From NCBI GenBank assembly GCA_026415395.1, contig JAOAHD010000001.1, positions 1 to 64,000 on the forward strand: 64,000 nucleotides of DNA. Direction: 5' to 3'. Below, piece by piece: positions 14,196 to 52,353 of this stretch. Position 1 is the first letter of the stretch; every line of letters begins with the position of its first letter. A program made the translations under genes and the position numbers. Below the pieces are notes generated by a model that worked only from the letters and a program-made list of their open reading frames with translations, was not told the origin of the DNA and searched no databases. The DNA comes from Candidatus Binatia bacterium. GTDB taxonomy: Bacteria; Desulfobacterota; Binatia; HRBIN30.

Positions 14196-14224
14196 TTCGA
14201 TCCCTCCTTTGCCGCACGATGTGC

Positions 14225-15367: not shown

Positions 15368-15378
15368 CTCCCCTCCGT

Positions 15379-16194: not shown

Positions 16195-16774
16195 GGCCTT
16201 CGGTTCCTGTCTTGCGGTTACGGCCCCAGCCGCGATCCTCGAGCTGCCCTAAAAGCTGCGCTCGCAAAAGCGCGCGGCCGCGCGCCAGCCGCGACATAAC
16301 TGTGCCTATGGGGCAGCCGAGAATTTCGGCAATTTCTTTGTACGACAACCCCTCGACGTCCCGCAGGTACACGGGAAACCGATACACCTCCGGCAAATTT
16401 TCCACCGCCCGCCGGATCTCGAGCGCCCACTGCTGCTCGACCGCAAGCTCCTCTGGCCCCCTGGCCGGCTCCGGTTCGGTACACGTTCGATCACGTCCAG
16501 CGGCTGCGACGCGGCGCGACTGCTCCCGTTGGGCGTCGATCCATGCATTGCGCAACACGATGAACAGCCAAGCGCGAATGTTCTGCCGAGGGGTAAGCTC
16601 TGCCCAATGCTCGATCGCTTTGAGCACGGTTGCCTGCACCAAATCCTCCGCCTCGCCCCGCCCGGCCAACTGAACAGCAAAATTGTACAGCGAGCGCAGA
16701 TGGGGCAACAGTTTTGCCGCAACCTCGTTCGTCTGTTGTCGCCGGAGCACAACGGGACCTCGACGTTTACTCAC
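16184..16774 (-). CDS. ECF-type RNA polymerase sigma factor
   Basis: A 196-residue protein with sigma region 2 ([15 protein letters not shown] to [19 protein letters not shown]) and region 4 ([37 protein letters not shown]), which is the ECF architecture. It should direct RNA polymerase to its own operon and perhaps the divergent surface gene. The GTG start at 16774 is given. GTG 16750 has a better GAGG site and is a real alternative. Overlap with the downstream anti-sigma gene implies coupled translation. The operon continues with peroxidase, phosphoesterase, cytochrome and Spy-like genes, so the regulon probably deals with envelope redox stress. Confidence 0.93.
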
Positions 16775-22294: not shown

Positions 22295-23299
22295 TCAGCT
22301 CAACCAACGCTGGACGATGCCATCGATCAGTACTCCTGCCAAGTAGAGGCCACCGAACCGCCGCGCATGTTGAAAGGCAAATGCCGAGTACCAGAGCGGC
22401 CAGACGTTGGGAGGAAATCCGTCCGGTGGAGCGCTCGGTCGCGCCTGACGCAAGACGCCGCTCAGCAACCGATACCAAGAAGCTGCTCCGAAGACCAACA
22501 GTACGGGCCAGCCCAGGCCCCCAGAGACGACCAGAGCGACCGTGACCACATACGCCGCAGTGCAGAGCAGCCAAGTTGTGCGACGCGCGCGTTGCTCGCC
22601 GAGGATCACGGGTAGGGTGCGAATCCGCTTCGTGCGGTCTGCCTCGATCTTGTCGATATGCTTACCGAACAAAACGGTGGTGGCTGTAAGGGCCACGGGC
22701 AAACTTGCCAACATCACGGTGTCATCAAATCGGCCCGTGATCACATAGTAGCCGCCGCCAACCATGAGAGGTCCCCACACAATCAGGACGGCCACTTCCC
22801 CGAGCCCGATGTATTTGAGCGGCCACGTGTAGAACAAGACAAAGAATGCCCCAGCCAGCAGCAACCAAAGCACGGGCTCGCCGCGCCAAAAGAGCAACGT
22901 TAGCCCGGCAAGCAAAGCCAAGAGGCCACTCACAGCAATGTATGCCAGCATTTGGCCCGTGGTCAACAACCCGTGCTCCAGCGGCTGCGGTCCGTATTGG
23001 GCACGGAAGTAGTTGTCTCGATCCACACCCTTCCAGTGGTCGGTGAGGTCATTCACCAAGTTGTTCGTCGCATGAGCTAGCAACAGCCCGGCTGTCAGTA
23101 CGAGCCAGCCGCCGAAATCGAACGCACCGTTGCGCCAGGCAAGCAGTCCTGCCAGCGCAGCCGACACGAAGGTCATCACCAACACGGCTGAGCGGGTGGC
23201 GATTAGCCAGCGCGAGACCACATCGAGCTCTTGCCACTCCTCGCGCGAGATGCGGGGAATGACCCGCACTGCTTTCGCCCACATGGCAACGTTCACCAT
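22295..23299 (-). CDS. UbiA-family prenyltransferase (MenA-like)
   Basis: A 334-residue integral membrane protein with about eight or nine helices. The first Asp-rich motif is NNLVNDLTDHWKGVDRDN and the second is DKIEADRTKRIRTLPV, which together bind the Mg-prenyl diphosphate in UbiA-family enzymes. ATG 23299 is chosen because GGAG lies 7 nt upstream. The longer open frame has an unlikely N-terminus. The closest type by eye is 1,4-dihydroxy-2-naphthoate prenyltransferase (menaquinone synthesis), but the family also modifies haem, chlorophyll and sugars. Linkage to a P450 leaves room for a terpenoid-quinone or secondary-metabolite role. Confidence 0.85.
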   Translation of the reverse strand: MVNVAMWAKAVRVIPRISREEWQELDVVSRWLIATRSAVLVMTFVSAALAGLLAWRNGAFDFGGWLVLTAGLLLAHATNNLVNDLTDHWKGVDRDNYFRAQYGPQPLEHGLLTTGQMLAYIAVSGLLALLAGLTLLFWRGEPVLWLLLAGAFFVLFYTWPLKYIGLGEVAVLIVWGPLMVGGGYYVITGRFDDTVMLASLPVALTATTVLFGKHIDKIEADRTKRIRTLPVILGEQRARRTTWLLCTAAYVVTVALVVSGGLGWPVLLVFGAASWYRLLSGVLRQARPSAPPDGFPPNVWPLWYSAFAFQHARRFGGLYLAGVLIDGIVQRWLS

Positions 23300-26662: not shown

Positions 26663-29600
26663 ATGTACGAAATCAAACAAATGTGGGCTTTTCCGGCCCG
26701 ACTCCTATTGTCATGCGCGCTGGTCGCACTCGGAACCGCCACTGCGGCCGTGGCAGCGCCCGTTCCTACTGCCTCGCTGTCCGTTCCAGGCAATGTGCTC
26801 ATTGGCGAGTCCTTCACCTTCACCATCAGCTTTGACAACACTTCACCGTCGGACGTCGGCTATGGCCCCTACATCGACCTCGAGCTCCCAACGATCGGTG
26901 CCGACGGTGCCGGGCCAGCAACGGACGACGGCATCACCTTCGTGTCAGCCACGTACCTCACGTTCCCCGTCACGGTTCAGGTTCTCACGTGCCCGGTCGC
27001 AAGCCATCCCTATACTGGGTTGCCGGTTACCTGTACCGCCGGTAACCAGCTTGTGGTCATGGAACTCCCGTTTGGGAGCTTTACCAACGACCAGCCTCCG
27101 GCGGACATCACGGTAAATGCAACGCTGAGCAATTTAGCTGATCTCGGAGTTCCGCTTCCGATCCGAGCTACCGGCGGCTTCCGCTTCGGGGCAGATCCGC
27201 TCGACAATCCAACCACCGACCCACCGATCCTCGGCGCGACGCAAAGTGCCAATGTGACGCCCACGCTGTTGACGCTCGCGAAGTCGTACAACGGGCCGGA
27301 GGATGAAACGGCTACGGGGCCCAACTTCCCGCGACGGTATACGATCACCGTCGATGTGGCCAATGGGCAGACGCTGTCCAACTTGGACGTTGCCGATTTT
27401 CTTCCCAACAATCTCGCGTTCTTATCGGTAATCTCTTTCACGCCGGGCACTGGCTCGGTGCTCGTCACGCCTCCAATTGGGGTTGCTGCAAACCCGCCCA
27501 ATAACCGCCTCACTGTGCGATTCCCTGCTATCGTCGGAGGAGCGGGCCCCGATGCGACTGTGGTGTTTGAGTTTTTCGTGCCCCAGTTTGATGCCAACGG
27601 CAATCCGGTGATCGACCCGAACTCCGGCGACGACGTGGTGTCAGTGAATCAGGCTCGAGCCGAGGCCGACTGGGTACCCATCGACAGCCGCGACCCGACC
27701 ACGCACATGGTGGAGGATCCAGCCGGTCCGGAGCACATTCTCAACGATCGGTCCGTCGCCATCCAGAAGTCGGTGGCTTTCGTAACCGATATGCCGCCGG
27801 CTGGGCTGTCTCCCGGAGATGTCCTGGAATACACGCTCGAATTTCAGATTTCGGACTTCTTCGCGTTCACCAACCTGCGGGTAGAGTACGACACATTGTC
27901 TGACGGGCAGCGGTTCGACACGACCTTCACCCCAACCCTGTCGGTAACGGAAAACGGAGCGACGAGCTCGGGCCCCTTCGACTCTGCCAATTATTCGGTC
28001 ACGTTGAACAGCCCAGGTACGGGAACCTCGGACGTGTGGTTCAACATTTCCGGAGAATTGATCACACGGGGCTTCTCCGGGCGACTTCTCGGGGGCCTCG
28101 TGCCCGACGGTGGAGCTCCGAACGATGGACCGACCGTGGGGACGATCCGCTATCGGGCGTACGTTCTCGACCAGTACTCGGACAACTTCCCCTCTGGTGA
28201 CCCGAGCCTCAACAGCCGCGACAGCATTTCGAACGCCGTGCGCATCGTCGGCGACGTGCTCAACAACGCTACGTTGACGCCCACGGGTTTCGACGAGGAT
28301 GACGGTAGTAGCGCAGGACTCACTGTGCCTATTGGGACGCTCACGAAGAGCATCTACGCACGCAATGGCGTTATCGGCTCGTTCACGCAGATCGCGCCGG
28401 GAGATACGGTAACGTTCCGCTTGCACTATGTCATTCCGACCGGAGACGTTGAAGCCTTACGGCTAGTCGACTGGCTCCCTTTACCAGTGCTGCTGGCGAC
28501 AGAGGTCAGCACATTCAACGACGTGGTGTCGAGCACGCCGCCGGCGGCGGGTACGGCCCATTTCGGGCCAGCGGATACCTTCCGGGCACTATCCGGGATT
28601 GTCCCAACGGTTTCTGTGGACTCCACTGCAAATTCCGTAGAGTTCACCTACGGAACCTTCGCCAATCCCGCCAATACCCCCGCGACGGTCGACATCCTCT
28701 TCACCGTGACGGTCTCCGCGGCTCCATTTGCGGACCGCCTCTTCCTCACTAATCAAGTGCGCGCCTACGAGCAAAATACTGTAATTGAGCGTGCCAGTGC
28801 CGACGCGATTGTCCAGTTTCAACTGACCGAGCCGGTGATCAATTGGTCGAACATCAAAGGCGCAGTGGCGAGCTCGAACCCGCTAGCTACATTTTCGCCC
28901 CCCGTGGTGGGTCCCGTATCCTTCACGCCACCCGGGAGCGGTTGTCCCCGATTTTCTGGGACCATTCACTCGAACGGGCTGAGCACGAACCCGATTCGTA
29001 GCGACGTGGCGAATGTGGATGCCGGAGATCTCGTGACCTTTGCCATCGTTGTCGAAAACACCGGCACGGGATTGCACGGGGCGTTCGATGTCCGGTTGCG
29101 CGACACTTTGCCTCCCGGTTTTTCCATTCCTCCTGGTGGTCCCAATCTTTGTGTGACAGACGGAACCGGCGCGCCAGTCACTTATGTTCCCCTAGGTGCA
29201 GGTTTGTTCGACCCGGCTGGCGGGATCGAGCTGGTAGACCCAGGGCCGACATCCACACCAGCAGGAGCGCTCGATCCCTACGATCCCGCAAACGGGCGCA
29301 ACGTCGTCGTGATCACATTCGACCTGCGTCTCGACGGTCCTGGCGACGCAAGTCCGGTTACACCCCGAAAAACTCTGACCAACACGGCCACGCTCTTCAA
29401 TTACGCGGGCGCCGAAGGCGGGCCCGACCACACCATCAATGACGGGACGGACACAGCTACGGCGACCACGGCGTCGCCCGCAGTGCAAAAGCTCATCCAG
29501 TCCATCGTGCCGAACGGAACTGGCGGCTCGAGTGTAACGGCTGGTGACGTGATCACCTATGCAATTAACGTTACGTTGCCAGAGGGACGAACCCCGGGAC

Positions 29601-32600
29601 TCACCCTCACCGATCGCCTGCCCGCTGGGTTCGAGTATGTCACGGGATCCGTTACCGTGATTCCTGGCACGTTTAACGGCTCGGTCACCGGCACCCCCTC
29701 TGTGGCTATTTCCGGGAGCATCGCCACGGGACAAATTGTGACCATCAGCTTTGGCGACGTCACGGTGAACGCCGACAACGATCCGACCACAAATACGTTC
29801 CAAGTCACACTTGCCGCGCTCGTGCGCAACGTCGCTCAAAATTCCGGAGCATCGAGTCCGCAGACAAAGACCAACCGCGTAGACTTGAACTTCACAGGGA
29901 ATCCGGGAGGCATTCTCACGTCAACGGTCAGCACAACTTTCCGCGAGCCGAGACTGACCCTGTCGAAGAGCATGAGTCCTGCAAATCCAGATGCAGGTGA
30001 CCTTGTGACGATCACGCTCACGGTGACGAACACTGGGACCTCGCAAGCGCACGACATTGTCCTCACGGATACCCTGCCTACAGACCTGTTTGACCCCACG
30101 CCTCTTCTATCGGTGAACGAGGGCACGACACCGACCGGATTCGTGTATGCGTACGCTCCTCCCACGGTTGCGTATACTGGTGGGCCGATTCCGGCGGGAG
30201 CCACGCGAACCTTCACATTCACCGCACGGGTTCGCAACGACGTTGTCACGGGGTCGACGTACGTGAACGGTGCGAACGTCGTCGGCGACTCGCAAGCCGG
30301 CAGCGTACCGGAACAACGTTCGACGACTGCAAGCGCAACAGCGAGCGCCACCGTACCAGCCACAACGGCGAGCAAAGCGGTGCAGGCCACGTCGGAGCCA
30401 AGCACCGACCCGGGGGATGCGAATGTGAACAGCAACCCGCCAGTAGCAATTGGCGAAGTTGTGACCTTCCGTCTCCATTTTACGATTCCAGAAGGGATTA
30501 CCCGCTCCGTCACCCTCGCGGACGCTCTGCCCTCAGGCCTGCAGCACATTCCTGGCACTGCCTACCTGTCGCGCAGCAGCACGGCGCTCACGAGCGCCGC
30601 CAATCCTGGGAACATCAACAGTGCTGCTCCTGGAGTGCCCGTACCGGTAACTCTAAGCGGCACGACCGGTGAAGTCACTCTTGCTTTGGGCGACGTGACC
30701 AACGCTGACAACAACAACACCACGAGCGAACAGTATACCCTGACGCTCAATGTGGTGGTCGAGAACTCGGCGACCAACAATGCGGGCACGAATCTCACCA
30801 ATGTCGCGCGGATCCGCTTCTTGAACTTCAACAACGTTCTTCAGCAAGTGAACACGAACACCCGCACCGTGCATGTGGCTGAGCCGATCCTCCAAGTAGA
30901 CAAATCGGCCGCCCCGCTTTCGGTGGAAGGTGGAGACACCGTAACGTTCACGCTGGTGATTGCGAATGCGGCCACGGGAACGAACGCCGCCAGTGCATTC
31001 AATTGGACGGTTTCTGACCCCTTGCCGTCATTCTACACCTCGCCAGCAGTGAGTTCAGTCAACCCCGGAAGCTCAGGGGCTACCGTGGCAGCCGGGTTCG
31101 TTGGGAACACGCTGACTGTAACGATCGATCAGCTGGACCCGGGTGAATCGGTCACCGTTGTGTACACAGCCGTGGTTGTTTCAGGAGTCCCGTTCAACCT
31201 CGTCATCACCAACACAGCGACCGCGGCGGCAACAAGTTTGCCGGGCACCAACGGCACCGGTGGCGTGACGCCGGGCGCCCCGGGCTCTGCGACGGGAGAG
31301 CGCACAGGCAGCGGTGGCGTGAACGACCTGACAACTGCGGATTCCGCGCAAGTGACTGCGCAAGGGCCCGCGCTGTCAAAGAATACGGTCAATCCACAGC
31401 CGTACGTGCCCGTGGAAGGCACCGCCACGTTTCGGATTGTCGCGAGCGCACCAATCGGCACAACAACGAACTTCGTGGTGTCGGATACCTTAGCCACCGG
31501 CTTGTCCTATGTTCTTGGCTCCCTGACAGTCACACTACCGCCTGGCGCAACAGCATCGAATGCGCCCCTTGTCGACTCGAACGCCAGCTTCTTCACGCAG
31601 TCCGGTAACAACTTGCAGTTTAACTTCGGCAACCTGACGGTTCCGGCCTCAGGGAACATCGAGATTGTCTACGACGTCCAGGTGCAGAACGTGCTCAGCA
31701 ATCAGGATGGGGTTCTGCTCGGCAATTCTGCCTCGATGTCCTACTTTGATCCGAACACGAGCGGGACCGTCAGTCTTGGCCCCGTTTCCACTCCAGACCC
31801 AGTGCGGGTAGGTGAGCCCAACCTCAACATGACAAAGGTGGTTGTCTCCGGCGGAGTTGGCGCGGACGCTGGAGATACGGTTCGCTGGCGCGTGCGGATC
31901 GAAAACACCGGACATACCACTGCGTATCAATTGGATTGGCGTGATGTTTTGCCGGACGGGCTCTACCAGATTAGCAATGTCGCGGTAACCCCAGCGGGGG
32001 GTAACGTGTTCCTGAACGGCACCAGCACAACCGTCACTGCGGCACACGCGGTGGTGAGTACGACCACGAACAGCAACGACACGATTTCCGTCCCGCTCCT
32101 CCAAATGGAACCAGGAGCCTCATTGGAGGTGGAGTTCGATTCCGTCCTGATGAACACTGTGACCCCTGGGCAAGTGCTCAACAACGCTACCCGGGCTAGC
32201 TACACGAGCCTCGTCGGTGGCGGACGCGATAACTCCAGCAACCCTGGCGGCGTCGACGACGACGATAACTCTCAACTGAACAACTACGAAGAGTCGGCGA
32301 GCCAATCGATCACAGTCGCCTCTCAAGTGGCGGTGGACAAAACCGTTGGCGCCCCCTCGTACACCATTGGCGAGGAGGTCGTTTATACGATCCGGATTTC
32401 TCTCATCGAAGGCACAACTCCCAGCCTGGTGCTAACCGACATTCTGCCCGTGGGTCTCACGTACACTGGCCACACGATCTCCTTCGGCCACATGGGCATG
32501 GTGGCAACAAACCCAACCTACAACACTCGTCTGGGCAGCGGGCAGACCGTGCAGTTCCAATTTGGTGACGTCGTCAACCCTGCCACCGGCAGTGCGACCG

Positions 32601-35600
32601 ATGACTTTGTCGACGTTCAAATTCGCGCACGTGTCGATAACGCCGGAAGCAACCAAAATGGCACTGTGCTGCGTAACGGCGAGCAGTCCGAGGGTTCATT
32701 GGTCACGGTGGACTATGGGACTGGCACGCCAACGACCGTGACGTTTGACCACGATGCGGGCACTCCGGGCGTGCAGGGTGTGCCGGTGACCGTCGTCGAA
32801 CCAGAGCTTGAAGTCGAGAAAACCGTGAGTCCACCTGCGCAATCCCTTGGCGACGAGGTTCAATACACCATCACTGTTCGCCACTTGGCGACGAGTACGT
32901 CCACAGCATACGACATCGTCATTCAAGACACGTTGCCCTCGGGGCTATCGTACATCGCGGGTTCTGCAACTCTGCCTCCCGGGGACGTGACAGTGTCTGG
33001 CCAGAACCTCACCTTCCGCATCGCTGCCCTTACGGTGACCGCCGGATCCACGTCATTTACCTACCGTGCGCGCGTGGAGACGTACGCCGTCGTGGGCGAC
33101 CAGCTCACGAACAATTTGGCCATGACGTGGACAAGCCTACCCGGCGCCTCCGGGGCACCGGACAGCGGGCGCGACGGTAGCGGCGGAGTCAACGACTACG
33201 TCGCGGGCGACTCCGCATCGGTGACCGTCGGTGGAACGGCTTTTATCGATGCCATCAAGACGGTCGTTGACCTCAATGGCGTCGAGGTATTACCGAACGA
33301 TGTCCTCGAATACACAGTCCAGCTCGTGAACGGTAGCGAGTCGGTGGACAACGTCGTGTTCACTGACGTTCTCCCTCCCTACGTTACCTATGTTCCTGGA
33401 ACGCTGACATCGAGCGTCGGTACGGCGACGTTCAGCGGTGGTACGATCACAGCGACGATTCCGAACCTACTTCCGGCACAGGTGGTCACGATTACCTTCC
33501 GGGTCACGGTCGATCCTGGCACCCCGAAGGGGACCGTGATTTCGAACCAGGGACTGGTGGATTCTGATCAAACCAGTCCCGAGCCGACGGATTGGGACGG
33601 CAACGAGGGAAACGGCGATCAGCCGACCGTCGTGATCGTTAAAAACAGCGCGCGGGGTCGCTTAAGAGCCACGAAAACCGTCGGCTTGCTGTTCGACACC
33701 GTTGCGCCTTCGGGAACGATCAACGCCGGAGACACGGTGCAGTACCAAATCACACTCTTTAACGATGGCCCCGTCACCGTCGAACAAGTCAGTTTTACCG
33801 ACGTGGTTCCACTTGGCCCGCCGGGTGTCGTCGTGACAGCGATCAGTACGACGCAGGGAACCGCACCACCTCCATCGAACAATGTGGTCATTTCCGATAT
33901 CGGGTCGATTCCACCTGGAGGCACGGTGCGCATCTTTATTACCGGCGTCGTGAACGGCGATGGTCTGTTTTGCAATCAAGGGCTGGTGCAGGCACGGCAG
34001 CCTAGCTCGACGACTACAGATGAGAACGGCAATCCGAATGACGGAGCTCAGCCGACTTGCCTCAACGCAGCACCAGCCGGGATGATCGGTGAGCCCGAGC
34101 TTACGGTAGATAAATCGTTCCGTATCGTGTCCGACTCGAACCTAAGTGGCGGGGTGAATCCAGGCGAGGTTCTGGAGTACACGCTCACCATCGTGAACCG
34201 CGGAAGCAGTAGCGCCACGGATGTTCGCGTCGATGATACATTCTCACCGCAACTGGTATTGATTCCCGGCAGTGTGGTCACCTCCCAGGGAGCGGTGGTC
34301 AGCGAAAATCCGCTGCTGGTCAACATCGGAATTTTGGAGCCGGGAGATGTTGCGGTCGTCCGCTACCTGATGACACTAGGCGCGGCGTCTCCTGGAACGC
34401 TGGTACAAAACACCGCCACGGCCCGCGACGCAGAAGGGGACAACGCCTCGGATTCTGCAAGCTTTAGCGTGCAAACTCCGTTCATCGACCTCAGCATCGA
34501 GAAATCGCATACAGGCACCTTCCGCGTAGGCGAGACGGCTACCTACACCTTGGTTGTTCGCAACGTCGGTATGTTGCCGACCTCGGGCACCGTAACCGTG
34601 ACCGATTCCCTGCCCAACGGATTGACCTACGTGTCCGCAACGGGAGCGGGCTGGTCGTGTAATGCGAGTGGCCCACTCGTTACGTGCACGCACGCAGGGG
34701 TGCTCTCACCAGGAGAGTCGCGGACAATCGTGTTGCAGGTGTCTGTGCGCAGCGCGGCCTACCCGACCGTCACCAACACCGCCACGGTCAACACTCCTGG
34801 CGATGCGAACAGCGCCAACAACACGGATTCGGATGCGACGCTCATTCGGCTCGCTCCGGGAGGCAACCCGCCGCCTTGTGGCATCGACCTGCGCAAGAGC
34901 CACACGGGCACGATCGAGCCCAACGCGGAGGTCGTGTACACGTTGTCCTGGACAACCGATTGCGCAGAGCCGCTAGTCGACTTGATCCTAACGGATGTGG
35001 TCCCAGGAGAGTTAGAGATCGTCAGTGTGACCAGCACCTCGGGCACCGTGAGCGTGGATGGGCAAACGGTTACGATCCGGATCCCGAACCTGTCTTCCGG
35101 CCCGGCACAAATGGCCACCATCCGCGTACAGGTGCGACCGAGCGTACCCAGTGGAACCTTGGTCGAGAACACAGCAGTGATCGAAGACGTGTACGGACGG
35201 AGGTTCTCCGCGCAGGACTCCTCCCGCGTGCGCGGCCTCCTGACGACCCGCAAGCGCTGCTTCCTCCGAGCACAAAGATACGCGGCACCGGGACGATACA
35301 TTACATACACCACCCGTTACTGGAGCTTTGATCCGGGACAGCGGCGCGTTTCCCTCGAACTCCCCGACTGGCTCGAAGTCCAGTCCATCTTCCCAGCGCC
35401 GAGCGCAATCGACCGCAATCTCTACATTTGGGACAACCTGCCCCCCACGGCTGGAAAGGTGCGCATAACGACCAAAGTGTCGCCTGACGCTCCAGATGGC
35501 CTGCTCCTTCCTGCGCTTGCTGAAGTGACAGACAGCGGTGGAGCCGCCGAGGTGGGCCGATGCACGCACGAGAGCGTGGTCCGCCGGCCGCAAAAATTGT

Positions 35601-35932
35601 TCGGATCCTTGAAGGCGAACAGCAAGATCTTCCCAAATGCTGCCATGACCTACGCTGCACGCTACCGAAACGGGGTGGAGCCGCTTCACATGAGCGTGGT
35701 CCTACCCTCGGAGGTTCAGCTCTTGAGTTCTTCACCCGAACCGGTACGAACCGACGGAAACGTCCTCTTCTTCGAAAACCTGCCTCCGCCAGCGGGCATC
35801 GTCAAAATCAAAGTTCAAGTCGGTGCGTTACCGGCCGGAGCGGCTCTCGCCGGGCGACTGACATTGACGGATGGCACAGGAACGGTAGTGGAGTCGCAGC
35901 ATACGACCGAGGTGCGCGCTGGTAACCGGTAA
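26663..35932 (+). CDS. Giant DUF11-repeat extracellular protein (3089 residues)
   Basis: The ATG at 26663 has GGAG about 7 nt upstream and yields an export signal (PARLLLSCALVALGTATAAVAAP). The rest is about 19 tandem domains of 110-170 residues of the DUF11 / isopeptide-forming type. Each opens with a conserved Lys line such as LSKSMSPANPDAGDLVTI, LEVEKTVSPPAQSLGDEV or LSIEKSHTGTFRVGETATYT. Each then has VTNTG and TDTLPxGLxYV segments and a Thr/Asn-rich end. The last two or three repeats are degenerate (RCFLRAQRYAAPGRYITY and KLFGSLKANSKIF). No LPXTG, autotransporter barrel or membrane anchor is visible at the C-terminus, which ends EVRAGNR. It is probably a stalk or adhesin. The secretion route is unclear. 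Confidence 0.9.
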   Translation: MYEIKQMWAFPARLLLSCALVALGTATAAVAAPVPTASLSVPGNVLIGESFTFTISFDNTSPSDVGYGPYIDLELPTIGADGAGPATDDGITFVSATYLTFPVTVQVLTCPVASHPYTGLPVTCTAGNQLVVMELPFGSFTNDQPPADITVNATLSNLADLGVPLPIRATGGFRFGADPLDNPTTDPPILGATQSANVTPTLLTLAKSYNGPEDETATGPNFPRRYTITVDVANGQTLSNLDVADFLPNNLAFLSVISFTPGTGSVLVTPPIGVAANPPNNRLTVRFPAIVGGAGPDATVVFEFFVPQFDANGNPVIDPNSGDDVVSVNQARAEADWVPIDSRDPTTHMVEDPAGPEHILNDRSVAIQKSVAFVTDMPPAGLSPGDVLEYTLEFQISDFFAFTNLRVEYDTLSDGQRFDTTFTPTLSVTENGATSSGPFDSANYSVTLNSPGTGTSDVWFNISGELITRGFSGRLLGGLVPDGGAPNDGPTVGTIRYRAYVLDQYSDNFPSGDPSLNSRDSISNAVRIVGDVLNNATLTPTGFDEDDGSSAGLTVPIGTLTKSIYARNGVIGSFTQIAPGDTVTFRLHYVIPTGDVEALRLVDWLPLPVLLATEVSTFNDVVSSTPPAAGTAHFGPADTFRALSGIVPTVSVDSTANSVEFTYGTFANPANTPATVDILFTVTVSAAPFADRLFLTNQVRAYEQNTVIERASADAIVQFQLTEPVINWSNIKGAVASSNPLATFSPPVVGPVSFTPPGSGCPRFSGTIHSNGLSTNPIRSDVANVDAGDLVTFAIVVENTGTGLHGAFDVRLRDTLPPGFSIPPGGPNLCVTDGTGAPVTYVPLGAGLFDPAGGIELVDPGPTSTPAGALDPYDPANGRNVVVITFDLRLDGPGDASPVTPRKTLTNTATLFNYAGAEGGPDHTINDGTDTATATTASPAVQKLIQSIVPNGTGGSSVTAGDVITYAINVTLPEGRTPGLTLTDRLPAGFEYVTGSVTVIPGTFNGSVTGTPSVAISGSIATGQIVTISFGDVTVNADNDPTTNTFQVTLAALVRNVAQNSGASSPQTKTNRVDLNFTGNPGGILTSTVSTTFREPRLTLSKSMSPANPDAGDLVTITLTVTNTGTSQAHDIVLTDTLPTDLFDPTPLLSVNEGTTPTGFVYAYAPPTVAYTGGPIPAGATRTFTFTARVRNDVVTGSTYVNGANVVGDSQAGSVPEQRSTTASATASATVPATTASKAVQATSEPSTDPGDANVNSNPPVAIGEVVTFRLHFTIPEGITRSVTLADALPSGLQHIPGTAYLSRSSTALTSAANPGNINSAAPGVPVPVTLSGTTGEVTLALGDVTNADNNNTTSEQYTLTLNVVVENSATNNAGTNLTNVARIRFLNFNNVLQQVNTNTRTVHVAEPILQVDKSAAPLSVEGGDTVTFTLVIANAATGTNAASAFNWTVSDPLPSFYTSPAVSSVNPGSSGATVAAGFVGNTLTVTIDQLDPGESVTVVYTAVVVSGVPFNLVITNTATAAATSLPGTNGTGGVTPGAPGSATGERTGSGGVNDLTTADSAQVTAQGPALSKNTVNPQPYVPVEGTATFRIVASAPIGTTTNFVVSDTLATGLSYVLGSLTVTLPPGATASNAPLVDSNASFFTQSGNNLQFNFGNLTVPASGNIEIVYDVQVQNVLSNQDGVLLGNSASMSYFDPNTSGTVSLGPVSTPDPVRVGEPNLNMTKVVVSGGVGADAGDTVRWRVRIENTGHTTAYQLDWRDVLPDGLYQISNVAVTPAGGNVFLNGTSTTVTAAHAVVSTTTNSNDTISVPLLQMEPGASLEVEFDSVLMNTVTPGQVLNNATRASYTSLVGGGRDNSSNPGGVDDDDNSQLNNYEESASQSITVASQVAVDKTVGAPSYTIGEEVVYTIRISLIEGTTPSLVLTDILPVGLTYTGHTISFGHMGMVATNPTYNTRLGSGQTVQFQFGDVVNPATGSATDDFVDVQIRARVDNAGSNQNGTVLRNGEQSEGSLVTVDYGTGTPTTVTFDHDAGTPGVQGVPVTVVEPELEVEKTVSPPAQSLGDEVQYTITVRHLATSTSTAYDIVIQDTLPSGLSYIAGSATLPPGDVTVSGQNLTFRIAALTVTAGSTSFTYRARVETYAVVGDQLTNNLAMTWTSLPGASGAPDSGRDGSGGVNDYVAGDSASVTVGGTAFIDAIKTVVDLNGVEVLPNDVLEYTVQLVNGSESVDNVVFTDVLPPYVTYVPGTLTSSVGTATFSGGTITATIPNLLPAQVVTITFRVTVDPGTPKGTVISNQGLVDSDQTSPEPTDWDGNEGNGDQPTVVIVKNSARGRLRATKTVGLLFDTVAPSGTINAGDTVQYQITLFNDGPVTVEQVSFTDVVPLGPPGVVVTAISTTQGTAPPPSNNVVISDIGSIPPGGTVRIFITGVVNGDGLFCNQGLVQARQPSSTTTDENGNPNDGAQPTCLNAAPAGMIGEPELTVDKSFRIVSDSNLSGGVNPGEVLEYTLTIVNRGSSSATDVRVDDTFSPQLVLIPGSVVTSQGAVVSENPLLVNIGILEPGDVAVVRYLMTLGAASPGTLVQNTATARDAEGDNASDSASFSVQTPFIDLSIEKSHTGTFRVGETATYTLVVRNVGMLPTSGTVTVTDSLPNGLTYVSATGAGWSCNASGPLVTCTHAGVLSPGESRTIVLQVSVRSAAYPTVTNTATVNTPGDANSANNTDSDATLIRLAPGGNPPPCGIDLRKSHTGTIEPNAEVVYTLSWTTDCAEPLVDLILTDVVPGELEIVSVTSTSGTVSVDGQTVTIRIPNLSSGPAQMATIRVQVRPSVPSGTLVENTAVIEDVYGRRFSAQDSSRVRGLLTTRKRCFLRAQRYAAPGRYITYTTRYWSFDPGQRRVSLELPDWLEVQSIFPAPSAIDRNLYIWDNLPPTAGKVRITTKVSPDAPDGLLLPALAEVTDSGGAAEVGRCTHESVVRRPQKLFGSLKANSKIFPNAAMTYAARYRNGVEPLHMSVVLPSEVQLLSSSPEPVRTDGNVLFFENLPPPAGIVKIKVQVGALPAGAALAGRLTLTDGTGTVVESQHTTEVRAGNR

Positions 35933-45110: not shown

Positions 45111-45932
45111 ATGGCACAAGCGCGCGTTTGCCTGTCCCTTTGCCTGTTTTGCTGCGCCGTAATCCTTACCAGCTGCTCTGGCTGGCCGGGGGCGACGAGC
45201 CCACTAGACGCGATCAGTGCGGAGCACGTCGTCGATCTCACCCACTCCTTTGGGCCAAGCACAATTTATTGGCCCACGGGCGAGTCGTTTCAGCTAGAGC
45301 GGCTCGCCTATGGCAAGACGGATCGAGGGTACTGGTATGCGGCAAACAAGATTTGCCTTCCCGAGCACGGCGGCACCCACATGGACGCGCCCATTCATTT
45401 TGCCGAGGGGCAACTGACCGCCGATGCCGTGCCTCTGCGCTCACTCATCGGGCCGGCTGCCGTGATCGATGTGCGGGGCGCTGCAGATAACAATCGCGAT
45501 TACGAGGTGACCGTGGATGACATCCTTCAGTGGGAACGCCGCCACGGTCGTTTGCCAGAGGGCGCCATCGTCGTCTTTTTTACCGGGTGGAGCCGCTTTT
45601 GGGGAGACAAGCGCGCATACCTTGGGAGCGACAAGCCAGGGGACGTGTACAACCTGCACTTTCCAGGGCTGTCCGCCGCGGCAGCCGAGTTCCTCACCAA
45701 AGAGCGCACGATCGCGGCGGTAGCCATTGACACAGCCAGCATCGATCCCGGCCCGTCCTTAGATTTTCTAGCACACCAAATCTTGAACGGGGCAAATAAG
45801 CCCGCCTTCGAAAATCTCACGAATCTACACTTGCTGCCCCCTACCGGGGCCATTCTGATTGCGTTGCCGATGAAAATCCAGGGCGGGAGTGGCGGCCCCG
45901 CCAGGATCATTGCCGTACTCCCGCATCGATGA
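45111..45932 (+). CDS. Cyclase-family (kynurenine formamidase-like) metal hydrolase, lipoprotein
   Basis: A 273-residue protein with a signal and lipobox (CAVILTSCSGW, Cys at about 22). The catalytic core follows: DLTHSFGPSTIYWP near the start, the metal-binding HGGTHMDAPIHF, and GVRIDT-like AVAIDTASIDPG. The family hydrolyses formyl-kynurenine or small amides and cyclic compounds using Zn or Mn. A lipid-anchored form implies a periplasmic substrate. The stop codon overlaps the start of the DUF1573-like gene (ATGA), so the two are translationally coupled. Confidence 0.88.
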   Translation: MAQARVCLSLCLFCCAVILTSCSGWPGATSPLDAISAEHVVDLTHSFGPSTIYWPTGESFQLERLAYGKTDRGYWYAANKICLPEHGGTHMDAPIHFAEGQLTADAVPLRSLIGPAAVIDVRGAADNNRDYEVTVDDILQWERRHGRLPEGAIVVFFTGWSRFWGDKRAYLGSDKPGDVYNLHFPGLSAAAAEFLTKERTIAAVAIDTASIDPGPSLDFLAHQILNGANKPAFENLTNLHLLPPTGAILIALPMKIQGGSGGPARIIAVLPHR

Positions 45933-46396
45933 CGAGAGCCTCGGGTGAGAAAGGCGGCTCAAGGGTTTCGCGACCCAACACCGCTAAAAAGAGGACGAGG
46001 AAGCTTCCAATCCTTGTTACTTCCTTCGTGATCCTCGCCATAGGTTTTTTCGCCTTCAAATGGACGCCTCCGTTGGCGCCTCCAGAGATCGCTGTCGAAA
46101 CCCTGCCGCCGCCAATCTCGCCGAAGAACGCCACAAACTCATCCAGCGTCTGGTTGCGAGTCGAAAATCGCGGGGTTGCTCCACTCCGCATTTACGAGAT
46201 CCGGAGCGGATGCAATGCCACCTTGTCACTGGGTGGGGCATGCACCGACTGCTCGTTTCCGATCATTCTCCAGAAGCACGCCCATTTGACCGTCCGCGTC
46301 GAGTTCCGCGATCGCCAGAGCTCAGGCATGTCAGAAACTACGGTGACCATTTATTCCAACGACCCAAGAACCCCAGCCCTGACCGTTCAGCTTTGA
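45929..46396 (+). CDS. Membrane-anchored DUF1573-like protein
   Basis: A 155-residue protein. A Lys/Arg-rich start precedes one membrane helix (ILVTSFVILAIGFFAF, about 28-43). The rest is a periplasmic Ig-like domain: VENRGVAPLRIYEIRSGC, a Cys-rich loop (CNATLSLGGACTDCSF) and the end SNDPRTPALTVQL. This matches the DUF1573 pattern of 'RNTGxxPL...SSCGC...TNDPxxP'. The function of the family is unknown. Its four-base overlap with the cyclase gene suggests it partners that enzyme. Confidence 0.75.
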   Translation: MTRASGEKGGSRVSRPNTAKKRTRKLPILVTSFVILAIGFFAFKWTPPLAPPEIAVETLPPPISPKNATNSSSVWLRVENRGVAPLRIYEIRSGCNATLSLGGACTDCSFPIILQKHAHLTVRVEFRDRQSSGMSETTVTIYSNDPRTPALTVQL

Positions 46397-46615: not shown

Positions 46616-47569
46616 ATGAGCCAGGTCGAGGATCGCGGAACTGTGGGTGGCGACGGGGCAAGGCCGAAGCGGGTAGTCGGTATTGGCACCAGTAGCGTGG
46701 ATCACCTATGCATCGTCGCCCGGCACCCCCGACTGGACAGCAAGCAGCCGCTTGTTCATTACGAAGTGCAGCCAGGAGGCCAGGTGCCCACGGCGCTCGC
46801 AGCTCTGCAACGCTGGGGAATTCCCACCGCGTACGTTGGCGCGTTCGGCGACGACCCCGGAGGTCACCTGGTGCGCGGCGCCCTCGCCCGCGAAGGAGTT
46901 GATATCGTTGCCTCGATCGTCCGCCCCAACACCAACCAACCGGTTTCAGTGATTTTAATTGACGAAGTCACTGGAGAGCGATCTGTCCTTTACCAGCCTG
47001 CAAACACGTTGGCACCCCCGGACCTCCACGAGCCGGCAAGGGATCGCTTACGAGACGCGGCCGCGGTCCTTCTCGATGCCGTTGATTTACACCAGGCAAT
47101 CGAAGCAGCCAAAATCGCCAAGGCCGCGGGGGCACTGGTTGTCTTGGATGTCGATTGCCCGGCACCCGGGATCGAAGAACTGCTGACCGTCACTGATGTG
47201 GTCATTACAGCCGCGGAATTTCCCCTGCGCTTGGCAGCTACCGACAACCTTCGGCGTGCACTGCGGTTTACGGCTAAGAAGGGCCCTTGGTTCGTAGGGG
47301 CTACGTTGGGGCCGGGAGGGGCGATCGCGTACGTCCAGGGTCGAGAGCACTTTGTGCGAGGTTTCCCCGTGCATGCCGTAGACTCCACCGGGGCCGGCGA
47401 TGTGTTTCATGCCGGGTGTATCTTCGGCCTCTTATCAGGCTGGAATGTCACCGACACTCTTCGCTTTGCTGCCGCTGCCTCTGCACTAAAGTGTCGGAAG
47501 GTTGGAGGCCGCCCCGGCATCCCCACTGTCGAAGAGGCTTTGTGTCTTGCCCGGAGGGACGAGCGGTGA
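46616..47569 (+). CDS. PfkB-family carbohydrate kinase
   Basis: A 317-residue ribokinase-like sugar or nucleoside kinase. ATG 46616 has AGAGG 4 nt upstream. Landmarks are GIGTSSVDHL at the start, the substrate loop QPGGQVPTALAALQRWG, and the anion-hole and catalytic base motif DSTGAGDVFHAG near the C-terminus. It should phosphorylate a sugar with ATP. The family alone does not give the sugar, but the next two genes act on a ribose-like polyprenyl sugar in their characterised relatives, so a pentose is plausible. The TGA overlaps the next gene's GTG, the first link of a five-gene operon. Confidence 0.88.
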   Translation: MSQVEDRGTVGGDGARPKRVVGIGTSSVDHLCIVARHPRLDSKQPLVHYEVQPGGQVPTALAALQRWGIPTAYVGAFGDDPGGHLVRGALAREGVDIVASIVRPNTNQPVSVILIDEVTGERSVLYQPANTLAPPDLHEPARDRLRDAAAVLLDAVDLHQAIEAAKIAKAAGALVVLDVDCPAPGIEELLTVTDVVITAAEFPLRLAATDNLRRALRFTAKKGPWFVGATLGPGGAIAYVQGREHFVRGFPVHAVDSTGAGDVFHAGCIFGLLSGWNVTDTLRFAAAASALKCRKVGGRPGIPTVEEALCLARRDER

Positions 47570-48939
47570 CAAAGCCTGGCGACCTCACAGCACCCAAGGC
47601 GCTACCCTCCTGTTCCCCGCTCCTGCCTGTCAGTGGATGGGGCCGTTACCCGGTTCAGGAGGCGAGGCTATGTGGCGATGAGAACCTCGCTGTGGTCGGC
47701 CGCTACACAACATTATCGCGGGGGCTCGGCCGATCGTATGGCGACGCAGCGTTGCCAGCGCGGGCCGGGGGTGCACTCACCTCAACGTTGTTTGCCGATC
47801 GCCTCCTTTCGTTTGACGCGAGCACCGGCATGCTTCGGGCCGAGGCCGGCTGCCCCCTGTGGCGAATCATCGAACTCTTCCTGCCCCGGGGTTGGTTTCC
47901 TCCTGTCACGCCCGGTACGAAGTACGTCACGCTCGGAGGCATGGTCGCCGCCGATGTTCACGGCAAAATGCACCACTCTCAAGGCAGCTTCGGCGACCAC
48001 GTTGTCTCCATCCTCTTGGAGGTCGCCGATGGTCGCGTGATCGAGTGCTCAGCGGAACAAGAACCGGAGCTGTTCAGGGCAACCATTGGCGGCATGGGTC
48101 TTACTGGGCACATTCTGGAAGTCAGCTTTCGGATGCAAAAGGTTCCTTCGCCCTGGATTCACGAAGAGGTCGAAACTGTTTCCGACATCCGTTCGCTCCT
48201 CTCCACCTTGCGTGCGGCAGGGCGGGACTGGCCGTTTACGGTGGCTTGGGCCGACCTTTTGAACACACCGCCTCTGTTCGGCCGTGGCGCAGTGATGAAA
48301 GGCCGGTGGGCCCAACCCGAAGAAGCTCCCCCGCAACCTCCAAAGCCGCGAAAACCCTTACGGGTGCCGCCCGTTTTCCCAGACTGGTTTCTGCAGCCGT
48401 GGATGCTGCGCGCATTCAATCGCCTGTACTTCTATCGGGCCTCCCGAGCCACGGGGCGCCGCATCGTCGACCCGGACACCTTCTTTTATCCCTTAGACGC
48501 GCTGCTGGATTGGAACCGCGTGTATGGCCGGCGCGGATTCACGCAGTACCAGTGTGTGCTGCCGGCTGAGGACGGTTTCGAAGCTCACGAACAGTTTGTG
48601 CTCAAGCTGCGCCAACTGGAAGCCCCGGTATTTCTTGCTGTCATCAAAGACTGCGGGGCTGAGGGACGGGGTGTCCTGTCGTTCCCCCGCCCGGGCGTTT
48701 CCTACGCCTTTGATCTGCCGATGTCTGACCGCACGCAGCACATCGTCGATGCCTTGAACGACTTTGTCATTGCCGCCGGAGGGAGAATCTATCTGGCCAA
48801 AGATGCGCTCACACGACCAGAGCATTTCCGCGCTATGGAACCCCGGCTGGAGCGCTTCTTGGCGATCCGCCGGCAGTGGGACCCGCAGGGCCGCTTTCGC
48901 AGCGCCTTATCGGTTCGCCTTTTCGGAGACCAACCATGA
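47566..48939 (+). CDS. DprE1-like FAD-dependent oxidase (decaprenylphosphoryl-ribose 2'-oxidase family)
   Basis: A 457-residue flavoenzyme. GTG 47566 overlaps the kinase stop and has GGAGG 8 nt upstream. The FAD-binding_4 domain has RGLGRSYGDAAL, PPVTPGTKYVTLGGMVA, DVHGKMHHSQGSFGDHV and ATIGGMGLTGHI. The C-terminal half has DALLDWNRVYGRRGFTQYQCVLP and GGRIYLAKDALTRPEHF. These match mycobacterial DprE1 line by line from memory, including the DxHGKxHH flavin region. The Cys that benzothiazinones attack in DprE1 appears to be Ala here (PGVSYAFDLP). DprE1 oxidises the 2'-OH of polyprenyl-phosphoribose. With the next gene it would epimerise ribose to arabinose. Confidence 0.85.
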   Translation: MTKPGDLTAPKALPSCSPLLPVSGWGRYPVQEARLCGDENLAVVGRYTTLSRGLGRSYGDAALPARAGGALTSTLFADRLLSFDASTGMLRAEAGCPLWRIIELFLPRGWFPPVTPGTKYVTLGGMVAADVHGKMHHSQGSFGDHVVSILLEVADGRVIECSAEQEPELFRATIGGMGLTGHILEVSFRMQKVPSPWIHEEVETVSDIRSLLSTLRAAGRDWPFTVAWADLLNTPPLFGRGAVMKGRWAQPEEAPPQPPKPRKPLRVPPVFPDWFLQPWMLRAFNRLYFYRASRATGRRIVDPDTFFYPLDALLDWNRVYGRRGFTQYQCVLPAEDGFEAHEQFVLKLRQLEAPVFLAVIKDCGAEGRGVLSFPRPGVSYAFDLPMSDRTQHIVDALNDFVIAAGGRIYLAKDALTRPEHFRAMEPRLERFLAIRRQWDPQGRFRSALSVRLFGDQP

Positions 48940-49673
48940 AAGCGGCAATCCTTGGTGCCACCCGAGGGATGGGCCGTGCATTGGCTCGGGAGTTAGCGCG
49001 GCGCGGCCACCAGCTATTCTTGCTTGGACGCAACCAGCGTGAACTCGAGCGGAGCGCTCGTGACCTAGAACTCCACGGTGCACCCCCACCCGTGGCGCAC
49101 ACCGAGTGCGATCTGGCGAACACAAGCACCTTTGAAGATGTGCTGGCGGCTGCGGATCGCGCCCTGGGCGGACTCGACACCGTGATCGTCACGGCAGGGA
49201 TCTTTGCGCCCCAAGAGGAGCTCGAAGCGGATCCTAACCTCACCGCAACGCTCCTGCAGACCAACTTCACCAACACAATCCTTTTCTGCGAAGCCGCACG
49301 CAAACACCTGTTGGCAAGGGGCGGCGGCACACTGTGCGTGTTCAGCTCTGTTGCGGGCGAACGGGGGCGAAAGCCCGTCGTGCTCTACGGTGCGACCAAA
49401 GCGGGCCTCAGCCGCTACCTCGAAGGCTTGGACCACCGGTACCACAGCGCCGGTTTGCGCGTCGTGACGGTGAAGCCTGGATTTGTGCGAACGAGCATGA
49501 CCATCGGTCTGAAGCCGCCTCCGTTCGCTGGAGAAGCTGACCAAGTGGCGAAGACGGTTGCAAATGCCATCGAACGAGGCCGACCGGTCGTGTACGCCCC
49601 CTCGATTTGGGCTTTTATCATGGCCGTGATACGCTGCTTGCCACGCTTCGTGATGAGAAAAGTCAACTTTTGA
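48936..49673 (+). CDS. DprE2-like short-chain dehydrogenase/reductase
   Basis: A 245-residue SDR. ATG 48936 overlaps the oxidase stop (ATGA). The Rossmann motif is ILGATRGMGRALARELARRG, the catalytic Tyr-Lys pair is YGATKAG, and the Ser is in VFSSVAGERGR. The C-terminal end FIMAVIRCLPRFVMRKVNF is hydrophobic and basic, as in DprE2, which works at the membrane. Together with the preceding oxidase it fits the keto-reduction step of polyprenyl-phospho-arabinose formation. The two-gene order, with tiny overlaps, equals the dprE1-dprE2 order of actinobacteria. Confidence 0.85.
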   Translation: MKAAILGATRGMGRALARELARRGHQLFLLGRNQRELERSARDLELHGAPPPVAHTECDLANTSTFEDVLAAADRALGGLDTVIVTAGIFAPQEELEADPNLTATLLQTNFTNTILFCEAARKHLLARGGGTLCVFSSVAGERGRKPVVLYGATKAGLSRYLEGLDHRYHSAGLRVVTVKPGFVRTSMTIGLKPPPFAGEADQVAKTVANAIERGRPVVYAPSIWAFIMAVIRCLPRFVMRKVNF

Positions 49674-49677
49674 GCGG

Positions 49678-50343
49678 ATGGCTGTGAGTAAGGTGATCAC
49701 GCTTGTGCTCCTGCGACACGGCGAAACCGTGGCGGGATCGAGCACGCGGTACTGGGGAGCAACAGACGTGGCCCTAAGCGAATTTGGTCGAGAGCAGATG
49801 AGACGAGCGGCTCCCTTCGTGGCGCAACTTGGGGTCGGTCAGGTTTTCACCAGCTGCCTGTCTCGCACCCGCGATGCCGCAGCGATCGTGGCACCGCAAG
49901 TGCCCGCCATCGCTCTCAAAGAACTCAATGAGGTGAACTTCGGACGGTGGGAAGGGCTCACCCGAGAACAAATCGCTACCGCATACCCCGAGGAGTACGC
50001 CCGCTGGCAACGCCGCGACCAAAACTTCCGTTACCCAGGCGGAGAATCGCTCGTTGAGTTTCAAAGACGAATCGAACTCGCCCTCAACCGAATCCTGGAC
50101 TCGGCTGCGCCCACAACCCTGGTCGTCGCCCACCGTGGCGTCATCGCTCGACTTCTGGCTCAGTTGCTCCATTGGGACACGACACACATGGCTACCCTGC
50201 ACATCCCTCTTGGCTCGCTGCACCTATTGCGCCGCGTGGCGGACCACGTTTGGAAACCGGAACGTCTCGACTACACAGCTCATCTCGATGCTCTTCGCCC
50301 GGTCGCCGCAGAGGAGGAAGCTCAACCCACGACACGCAACTGA
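49678..50343 (+). CDS. Histidine phosphatase family protein
   Basis: A 221-residue phosphoglycerate-mutase-like phosphatase: LRHGET with the phospho-acceptor His, RTRDAAAIVA, the proton donor in ELNEVNFGRWEG, and the second His in VVAHRGVI. It resembles alpha-ribazole or pentose phosphatases of this superfamily. It starts 4 bp after the reductase stop and ends 3 bp before the next gene. In the context of a DprE1/E2 pair, a phosphatase could remove the 5-phosphate from a polyprenyl phosphoribose-phosphate intermediate. This is inference. Confidence 0.85.
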   Translation: MAVSKVITLVLLRHGETVAGSSTRYWGATDVALSEFGREQMRRAAPFVAQLGVGQVFTSCLSRTRDAAAIVAPQVPAIALKELNEVNFGRWEGLTREQIATAYPEEYARWQRRDQNFRYPGGESLVEFQRRIELALNRILDSAAPTTLVVAHRGVIARLLAQLLHWDTTHMATLHIPLGSLHLLRRVADHVWKPERLDYTAHLDALRPVAAEEEAQPTTRN

Positions 50344-50346
50344 GCT

Positions 50347-52353
50347 ATGGCCAGACACTCTTTGAGCGTCACCTACCCATATGCGCTTCCCTCGGAAGAA
50401 TTGCAGCTCTCGCCGATCAAGGCGATCGAGATCGAGGCGGCGCATATTCCCGGTGTCGTGTCCTTGGCGCAGGGAATTCCCAGCTTCGACACCCCAGAGA
50501 TCATCAAGTCCTATGTGAAGCAAAAACTCGACGAGGGTGCGTGCGCCAAGTACAGCTTGTCCCCTGGTCTCCCTGCACTTCGGGAGCTGATCAGCGAGCA
50601 CCTGCGCAGCGAGGGGATGCAGTACGACCCCGAGAGCGAGATCATTGTCACTTGTGGTTCGATCGAAGCGATTACAGCAAGCCTCCTTGCGCTCGTCCCA
50701 TCGGGATCGGAAGTGATCGTCACTTCGCCGACTTATACTTCGTACTCCAGCGCAATCCGACTCGCCGGGGCGGTTCCGCGATTTGTTCCGCTGGTTGAGG
50801 ATCTCGGCTTCGACCTCGACCACGAGATGCTGCTGCGGGCCTTCACGCGGAAAACCCGGGCCGTATTGATCGCTCAACCCAACAATCCTACCGGCACGAT
50901 CTTCCCAAAGTCGACCGTGGAACTCTTGTTGCAGCTCGCAGAGCGACATGGTGCTGTGGTGATCTCGGACGAGGTTTACAAAGAGTTCGTGTATTCGCCA
51001 GAGCCGGTGGTGAGCCCTGCAGCGTTTGCTGCCCATCGACACCACACGGTGCGCGTCTGCTCGTTTTCGAAGGCCTATGCCATGACCGGTTGGCGCGTCG
51101 GCTTTCTTCATACGGACCGCCGCCTGGCGCAACGCATTCTTCGAGTCCATGACACCTTGGTGACGTGCGCCCCGGTAGTTTCCCAATACGCGGCGATGGC
51201 GGCACTCGAACACTCGGACGCAATCGTGGTACCGTTTCGGGAGCAATTCCGCTTGCGGCGCCAGCGTATGATCGAGCACCTCGACAGCCTGTCCGCGGTT
51301 TTTGATTACCAAAAACCAGATGCTTCTTACTTCGTGTTCCCGCGTGTCAAAGACAGCGCCCCCTATGCCCGGGATTCCCATGCGCTCGCCTGTGCCCTTC
51401 TTTACGAAGCCCGCGTGGCCGTCGTGCCCGGCAGCGCCTTCGGACCAAGCGGCGAGGGCCACCTCCGGCTGTGCTTCGCCCGCGACCCAGCAGACATCGA
51501 CCTGGCGTTCGAGCGAATGCGCGACTTCTTCAAACTCCCCCGGCGCTCACCTAGTGCCGCTGCTCACAGAGTTGTTCTCGCTCCGGCCAAATCTTCACCA
51601 GTGAGAGTGAGCTGGCGGCGGCAGTTTGCGGCCGCTGTTTTTTCCCAGCTCGCCCGCCTCAGCCTCCGCATGCACCGACCCATCGTCATCGGGATCGCCG
51701 GTGGACGTGGGAAAACCGTGGCAAAGCGGGTGTTTTTGGAAATCCTATCGCGCCGTTTTCAAGTGCGAGTTAACCCGTTGTCCTACAACACGGAAATCGG
51801 GTTGCCCCTAGCGGTTCTCGGGGTCCAGTTCGAAACACTGCAAACACGCGCGGTCCTCAAGGGCTCTCTTGTCGCATTGTACCGCGCGCTCTCTCCTGAG
51901 CGCAGTGCCGTGCTTGTGCTCGAGTACGGAGTGCGCCAGAGCGGAGATGCGCAGCGACTGCTCGATATCGTCGAGCCGGACATTCTGGTTCTTACTCCGA
52001 CTGCCGGAGCCGGAGCTTACGACGAGCACTCCTCCGCTACCCTGCGAGACGAGCTGGCAACGTTAGTCCGGTGTGTCGCGCAAAAGCCCGCCCCGATCAT
52101 CGCTTGCCAGGACGATCCGTTTTGCCGCAGTCTCGATCTGCCCAAAGGCACCTGGTTTGTGTCGAGTGAAGCGGACACAGCCAGTGGCTGCGCGGTCACG
52201 GCGAGCGTCGAAGGCACCGAAATTCCCTTGGGCCGCGACTTCGTGGGCACGAGCGAACTTTACGCACAGCGTGCCGCACTAGTTGTCGCTCGTGTCCTCG
52301 GTACCCCGCTGCAAGACCTCTACTCGCTGGCGGCAGGGGATCACGATCGATAA
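50347..52353 (+). CDS. Fusion of PLP aminotransferase with MurF/Mur-ligase-like ATPase domain
   Basis: A single open frame of 668 residues. Residues 1 to about 395 are a fold-type I aminotransferase: QGIPSFDTPE, AQPNNPTGTIF, the PLP lysine K242 in SFSKAYAMTGWRVG, and SGEGHLRLCFA at the end. After a linker of about 30 residues, residues 440-668 resemble the central ATPase domain of Mur ligases: P-loop GIAGGRGKT (449-457), NTEIGLPLAVLG (481 onward, like the NNEIGLPL of MurF), LVLEYGVRQSGD and PDILVLTP. The Mur N-terminal and C-terminal domains are absent or very short. I know of no such fusion. It ends the tight operon with DprE1/E2-like enzymes and may make and attach an amino compound. Confidence 0.85.
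   Translation: MARHSLSVTYPYALPSEELQLSPIKAIEIEAAHIPGVVSLAQGIPSFDTPEIIKSYVKQKLDEGACAKYSLSPGLPALRELISEHLRSEGMQYDPESEIIVTCGSIEAITASLLALVPSGSEVIVTSPTYTSYSSAIRLAGAVPRFVPLVEDLGFDLDHEMLLRAFTRKTRAVLIAQPNNPTGTIFPKSTVELLLQLAERHGAVVISDEVYKEFVYSPEPVVSPAAFAAHRHHTVRVCSFSKAYAMTGWRVGFLHTDRRLAQRILRVHDTLVTCAPVVSQYAAMAALEHSDAIVVPFREQFRLRRQRMIEHLDSLSAVFDYQKPDASYFVFPRVKDSAPYARDSHALACALLYEARVAVVPGSAFGPSGEGHLRLCFARDPADIDLAFERMRDFFKLPRRSPSAAAHRVVLAPAKSSPVRVSWRRQFAAAVFSQLARLSLRMHRPIVIGIAGGRGKTVAKRVFLEILSRRFQVRVNPLSYNTEIGLPLAVLGVQFETLQTRAVLKGSLVALYRALSPERSAVLVLEYGVRQSGDAQRLLDIVEPDILVLTPTAGAGAYDEHSSATLRDELATLVRCVAQKPAPIIACQDDPFCRSLDLPKGTWFVSSEADTASGCAVTASVEGTEIPLGRDFVGTSELYAQRAALVVARVLGTPLQDLYSLAAGDHDR

Follow-up and report, generated by a model that had tools for sequence, protein, structure and literature searches.

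Do five genes that lie almost end to end in the genome of a Candidatus Binatia bacterium serve one pathway, or has one operon gathered several? The window that we analysed, meaning the whole stretch of 64,000 nucleotides (contig JAOAHD010000001.1, positions 1 to 64,000), carries at positions 46616-52353 five genes, all on the + strand and with frames that translate cleanly, which overlap by 4 and 4 bp and are then separated by gaps of 4 and 3 bp, in agreement with the coordinates and spacing (-4, -4, +4, +3 bp) of an earlier sequence-only reading. The five families named there also agree with profile matches (PfkB, FAD-binding oxidase with an ALO-type C-terminus, SDR, branch-1 histidine phosphatase and class-I aminotransferase), except that the Mur part of the last protein is a middle domain only. 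Promoter and terminator scans gave matches at chance level only. The features discussed are the following:

22295-23299, - strand: MenA-like UbiA prenyltransferase, outside this pathway (NCBIfam MenA models best)
45111-45932, + strand: cyclase/formamidase-like protein (Pfam PF04199), directly upstream, a conserved neighbour of PfkB
45929-46396, + strand: DUF1573-like protein (PF07610 match just below the cut-off), a conserved neighbour of PfkB
46616-47569, + strand: PfkB/ribokinase-like sugar kinase (PF00294)
47566-48939, + strand, GTG start: DprE1-type FAD oxidase, polyprenyl-phospho-ribose 2-oxidase (profile, structure match, tree, residues)
48936-49673, + strand: DprE2-type SDR reductase (PDB match, NF053786, NoeO identity, adjacency to DprE1 across families)
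49678-50343, + strand: branch-1 histidine phosphatase (PF00300)
50347-52353, + strand: class-I aminotransferase (residues about 1-400, PF00155) fused to a MurF-like Mur-ligase middle domain (about 430-668), here AT-Mur

Elsewhere, the window contains one very long open frame of about 3089 aa (26663-35932) with repeated, surface-protein-like sequence, and, within 13047-16750, a pair of genes that from reading alone resemble a cytochrome c peroxidase (14225-15367) and a phosphoesterase, beside apparent anti-sigma and sigma factor genes (15379-16750).

The resemblance of the second gene to DprE1, proposed at first reading, holds up in profile scoring, in a structure-database match, in the tree and at the active site. 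With the DprE1 profile NF053785 its product reaches 364 bits, and its best PDB match is M. tuberculosis DprE1 (8e-73), the next oxidases following at about 1e-6. The score lies below the actinobacterial equivalog cut-off of 500 bits, but NoeH from rhizobia (401) also falls short while the Rhodococcus enzyme (808) passes, indicating that the cut-off suits the actinobacterial branch. A grouping with lactone oxidases would have spoken for a different enzyme; in a maximum-likelihood tree rooted on three lactone oxidases (ALO), the window oxidase is instead nested within DprE1 (support for the DprE1 side 100/100), which rules out a lactone or alditol oxidase identity. The nearest clade is the one that contains NoeH (94/91), the mycobacterial and Rhodococcus DprE1 proteins lying in a neighbouring group, and the subfamily, common to families f1, f3, f4, f7 and f10 of the class, sits on a long stem of 0.98 changes per site. 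At ten active-site positions checked, the window oxidase is identical to NoeH (10/10): Tyr60, His132, Trp230, Gln334, Gln336, Lys367 and Lys418 are also the residues of M. tuberculosis DprE1, whereas positions 314, 385 and 387 are Phe, Ser and Ala as in NoeH. Ser and Ala thus stand in place of mycobacterial Asn385 and Cys387, the latter being the benzothiazinone target, and nearly all sampled sequences from outside the actinobacteria have Ala at 387. Judged by these sequence features, the oxidase is a member of the DprE1 family, in a distinct subfamily, and is predicted to oxidise polyprenyl-phospho-ribose. Families f9 and f11 and genome G003 possess a second DprE1-like oxidase, which is divergent (about 29-33% identity) and in most cases has an SDR gene next to it (L063-L066, L069).

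The third gene, likened earlier to DprE2, encodes an SDR with a YxxxK site that adjoins DprE1, and its nearest solved structure is M. tuberculosis DprE2 (1.5e-27). Its NF053786 score of 160 bits, like that of NoeO (192), is under the actinobacterial equivalog cut-off of 250. DprE1 and DprE2 are neighbours in most relatives that have the pair, often with the identical 4-bp overlap. The pair has known counterparts in mycobacteria and rhizobia. Mycobacterial Rv3790-Rv3791 is likewise adjacent and provides the closest solved structures, with His132, Lys367, Lys418 and Gln334/336 common to both, although the window proteins lie below the curated equivalog cut-offs. The rhizobial NoeH and NoeO proteins, at 40% and 34% identity to the window oxidase and reductase, are alike in family and in the active-site residues of the oxidase, and their operon is required for D-arabinosylation of Nod factors, as mutants demonstrated (PMC5080398).

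Such a pair would need a ribosylated lipid, and the sequence-only reading, finding no pentosyl transferase in the operon, had pointed to the UbiA-family gene at 22.3 kb as a distant candidate. That candidate falls away: MenA models fit it best, and no phosphoribosyltransferase model matches it. The contig nevertheless carries a gene for a polyprenyl-phosphate phosphoribosyltransferase, beyond the end of the window (G000:C1 near 125938-126820; 309 bits against a cut-off of 234), about 74 kb further along than the DprE1-DprE2 operon. It lies among genes for a GDP-mannose 4,6-dehydratase, an SDR epimerase-like protein and a cupin (L171:8581-11820; G000:C1, about 123.6-126.8 kb), a cluster also kept in relatives that lack DprE1 (G005, G007), suggesting that the ribosyl lipid may also serve unmodified and that DprE1/E2 would supply an additional epimerisation step. 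Elsewhere in the class, other families have DprE1 beside this synthase type and beside large membrane proteins that resemble GT-C enzymes on reading but are matched by no model of Pfam or NCBIfam. Family f10 (L042-L044) has DprE1-DprE2 followed by a GT-C-like membrane protein, which is unlike NoeP, and a fusion of LPG_synthase_TM with a methyltransferase; these two are candidates for the arabinosyltransferase and the flippase. GT-C-like queries from families f10 and f8 (two) gave no match in the window genome, and its 13 PMT_2-type matches are unspecific, so that no arabinosyltransferase can be assigned from them.

Based on these findings, we propose that the phosphoribosyltransferase would convert PRPP to a ribosyl lipid, that DprE1 would oxidise polyprenyl-phospho-ribofuranose at C2 in an FAD-dependent step to a 2-keto intermediate, and that DprE2 would reduce this intermediate with NAD(P)H to polyprenyl-phospho-D-arabinofuranose; following loss of the 5-phosphate by a phosphatase and export by a flippase, a membrane GT-C enzyme would then transfer arabinofuranose to an envelope glycan as the putative acceptor. 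An epimerase added to a ribosyl-lipid route has been described for three-component pentofuranose systems of Gram-negatives, in which polyprenyl-phospho-pentofuranose is derived from PRPP and epimerases are optional, and those for Araf-containing glycans come with DprE1/E2 homologs (Kelly et al. 2024, PMC11127046); in contrast to these systems, the genes of the window genome are scattered and neither flippase nor GT-C was identified in it. The rhizobial noeCNHOP genomes, like the window genome, encode a UbiA phosphoribosyltransferase, but the window operon differs from noeCNHOP in having no synthase, no NoeP or GtrA partner that could be seen, and other neighbours. In the rhizobial operon, the gene at the noeN position (L261:6600-7022) has both the annotation and the score of a GtrA-family membrane protein, so that a flippase role seems likelier for it than the phosphatase role proposed in the literature.

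Given the long stem of the DprE1 subfamily, the sugar handled could differ. The enzymes might epimerise another lipid-linked sugar, or some ribosylated lipid that is not polyprenyl-phospho-ribose, an option to which the position of the f4 pair downstream of an ABC transporter and an MlaC-like lipid-binding protein would also be suited; because the oxidase has the active-site residues of NoeH and a matching phosphoribosyltransferase is present in the genome, we regard this as distinctly unlikely and retain polyprenyl-phospho-ribose as the predicted substrate.

Whether the remaining genes belong with this pair can be judged from relatives, 57 of 145 of which have a DprE1 homolog. The five-gene order, whose conservation the sequence-only reading had named as a check, holds within one genus (three genomes), and a second genus of the same family (G004) retains four of the five genes (PfkB-DprE1-DprE2-AT/Mur, the phosphatase missing), but the order does not extend beyond the family. 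Across relatives the operon resolves into three modules: cyclase-DUF1573-PfkB, DprE1-DprE2 and phosphatase-AT/Mur. PfkB follows the cyclase and DUF1573 genes, away from DprE1, in five genomes of families f1-f4 (L243, L244, L245, L247, L248), and G005 and G007 among these five have no DprE1; DprE1-DprE2 is found with neither flanking module; and the phosphatase lies directly upstream of AT-Mur in the f1-f4 relatives G003, G007, G008, G010 and G012, at spacings of -4 to +55 bp. No two of the three modules share a contig in G008, G010 and G012.

This distribution bears on the earlier proposal that all five genes form a single new envelope-sugar pathway, with the kinase and phosphatase shaping the pentose and AT-Mur making or attaching an amino group. 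The tight spacing and the four genes kept together in G004 would fit such a pathway, but the modules are separable, each occurring in genomes that lack others: G007 has the kinase and phosphatase-AT/Mur without DprE1, 11 of the 24 genomes with the AT-Mur fusion give no DprE1 match, and the Mur part is, by residues and domains, no ligase. We therefore consider a five-gene pathway very improbable, and since the modules separate in relatives, the operon of this genus is no proof of one; the stacked order common to two genera is a weak hint of some functional link between modules.

A narrower link would tie only the phosphatase to DprE1/E2, leaving PfkB and AT-Mur aside: the enzyme would take the 5-phosphate off polyprenyl-phospho-ribose-5-phosphate. 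The phosphoribosyltransferase of the window genome lacks the HAD phosphatase domain that some relatives have, which would make a separate phosphatase necessary, and the best profile of the histidine phosphatase is alpha-ribazole phosphatase, whose substrate is a ribose-5-phosphate ester. However, the gene accompanies AT-Mur rather than DprE1, is missing from the G004 operon and occurs in unrelated gene sets in family f12, so that this assignment appears unlikely. The best reading is that the flanking modules have functions of their own and were joined to DprE1-DprE2 within one family, and we judge it probable that the operon is composite, combining arabinofuranose-donor synthesis of the known DprE1-DprE2 kind with two separable modules.

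The last gene had been read as an aminotransferase-MurF fusion that could ligate an amino compound. The fusion itself is real: it occurs in 24 genomes of the class, with one weaker match elsewhere in the phylum, and the PLP lysine and other aminotransferase residues are kept in 18 of 18 homologs. The second part shares with MurF a P-loop, an NxEIGLPLxxL-type motif and middle-domain homology, and Gly452, Gly455 and Thr457 of the P-loop and the Glu of an LEMG motif are invariant. Of the three domains of a Mur ligase, however, it matches only the middle one (closest to MurF), and alignment to MurF structures places Glu at the carbamylated-Lys position in 18/18 homologs and reveals that the Mg-binding His is not kept. 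By these residues and domains, AT-Mur is not a MurF and is probably not an ordinary amide ligase, and the suggested ligation loses its basis.

Outside the phylum, aminotransferase genes 45-51% identical to that of the window occur in three candidate-phylum genomes (Portnoybacteria, Wolfebacteria, Parcubacteria group). At L071:5541-7514 and L072:8013-10012 the aminotransferase is directly followed by a separate Mur-like gene (258-275 aa) with a degraded P-loop, and at L073:7983-9526 similarity extends past the aminotransferase into the next stretch, for which the ORF list holds no single intact Mur gene. In a plasmid collection, AT-Mur matched through its aminotransferase part only. A structure model was moderate (mean pLDDT 77), and the fold matches listed were all aminotransferases, carrying little information on the Mur part; the GntC guanitoxin cyclodehydratase model NF041364 scored 299 bits against a cut-off of 415, as one of many aminotransferase models matching. 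Within the literature library searched, no paper on an aminotransferase-Mur fusion in Parcubacteria turned up. We tentatively suggest, with somewhat more doubt than conviction, that AT-Mur represents a new family, in which an active-looking aminotransferase is coupled to a lone Mur middle domain, altered from Lys to invariant Glu and without the Mg-binding His, that may sense ATP or be otherwise repurposed, encoded as one fused gene in this class and as two neighbouring genes in candidate-phylum (Parcubacteria-type) genomes. As a guess, AT-Mur could be an amino-acid aminotransferase regulated through a nucleotide-binding domain.

The locus teaches that a tight operon can mislead: what looks like one transcription unit here is made up of three conserved modules that can be separated. 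A conserved aminotransferase-Mur fusion also emerges, one with no described function that we could find, and it merits its own study. The arabinofuranose-donor epimerase, in the form of a distinct subfamily, is extended to a further, uncultured bacterial class, which would possess a pair of enzymes that turns lipid-linked ribose into lipid-linked arabinose, as tuberculosis and root-nodule bacteria are known to have.
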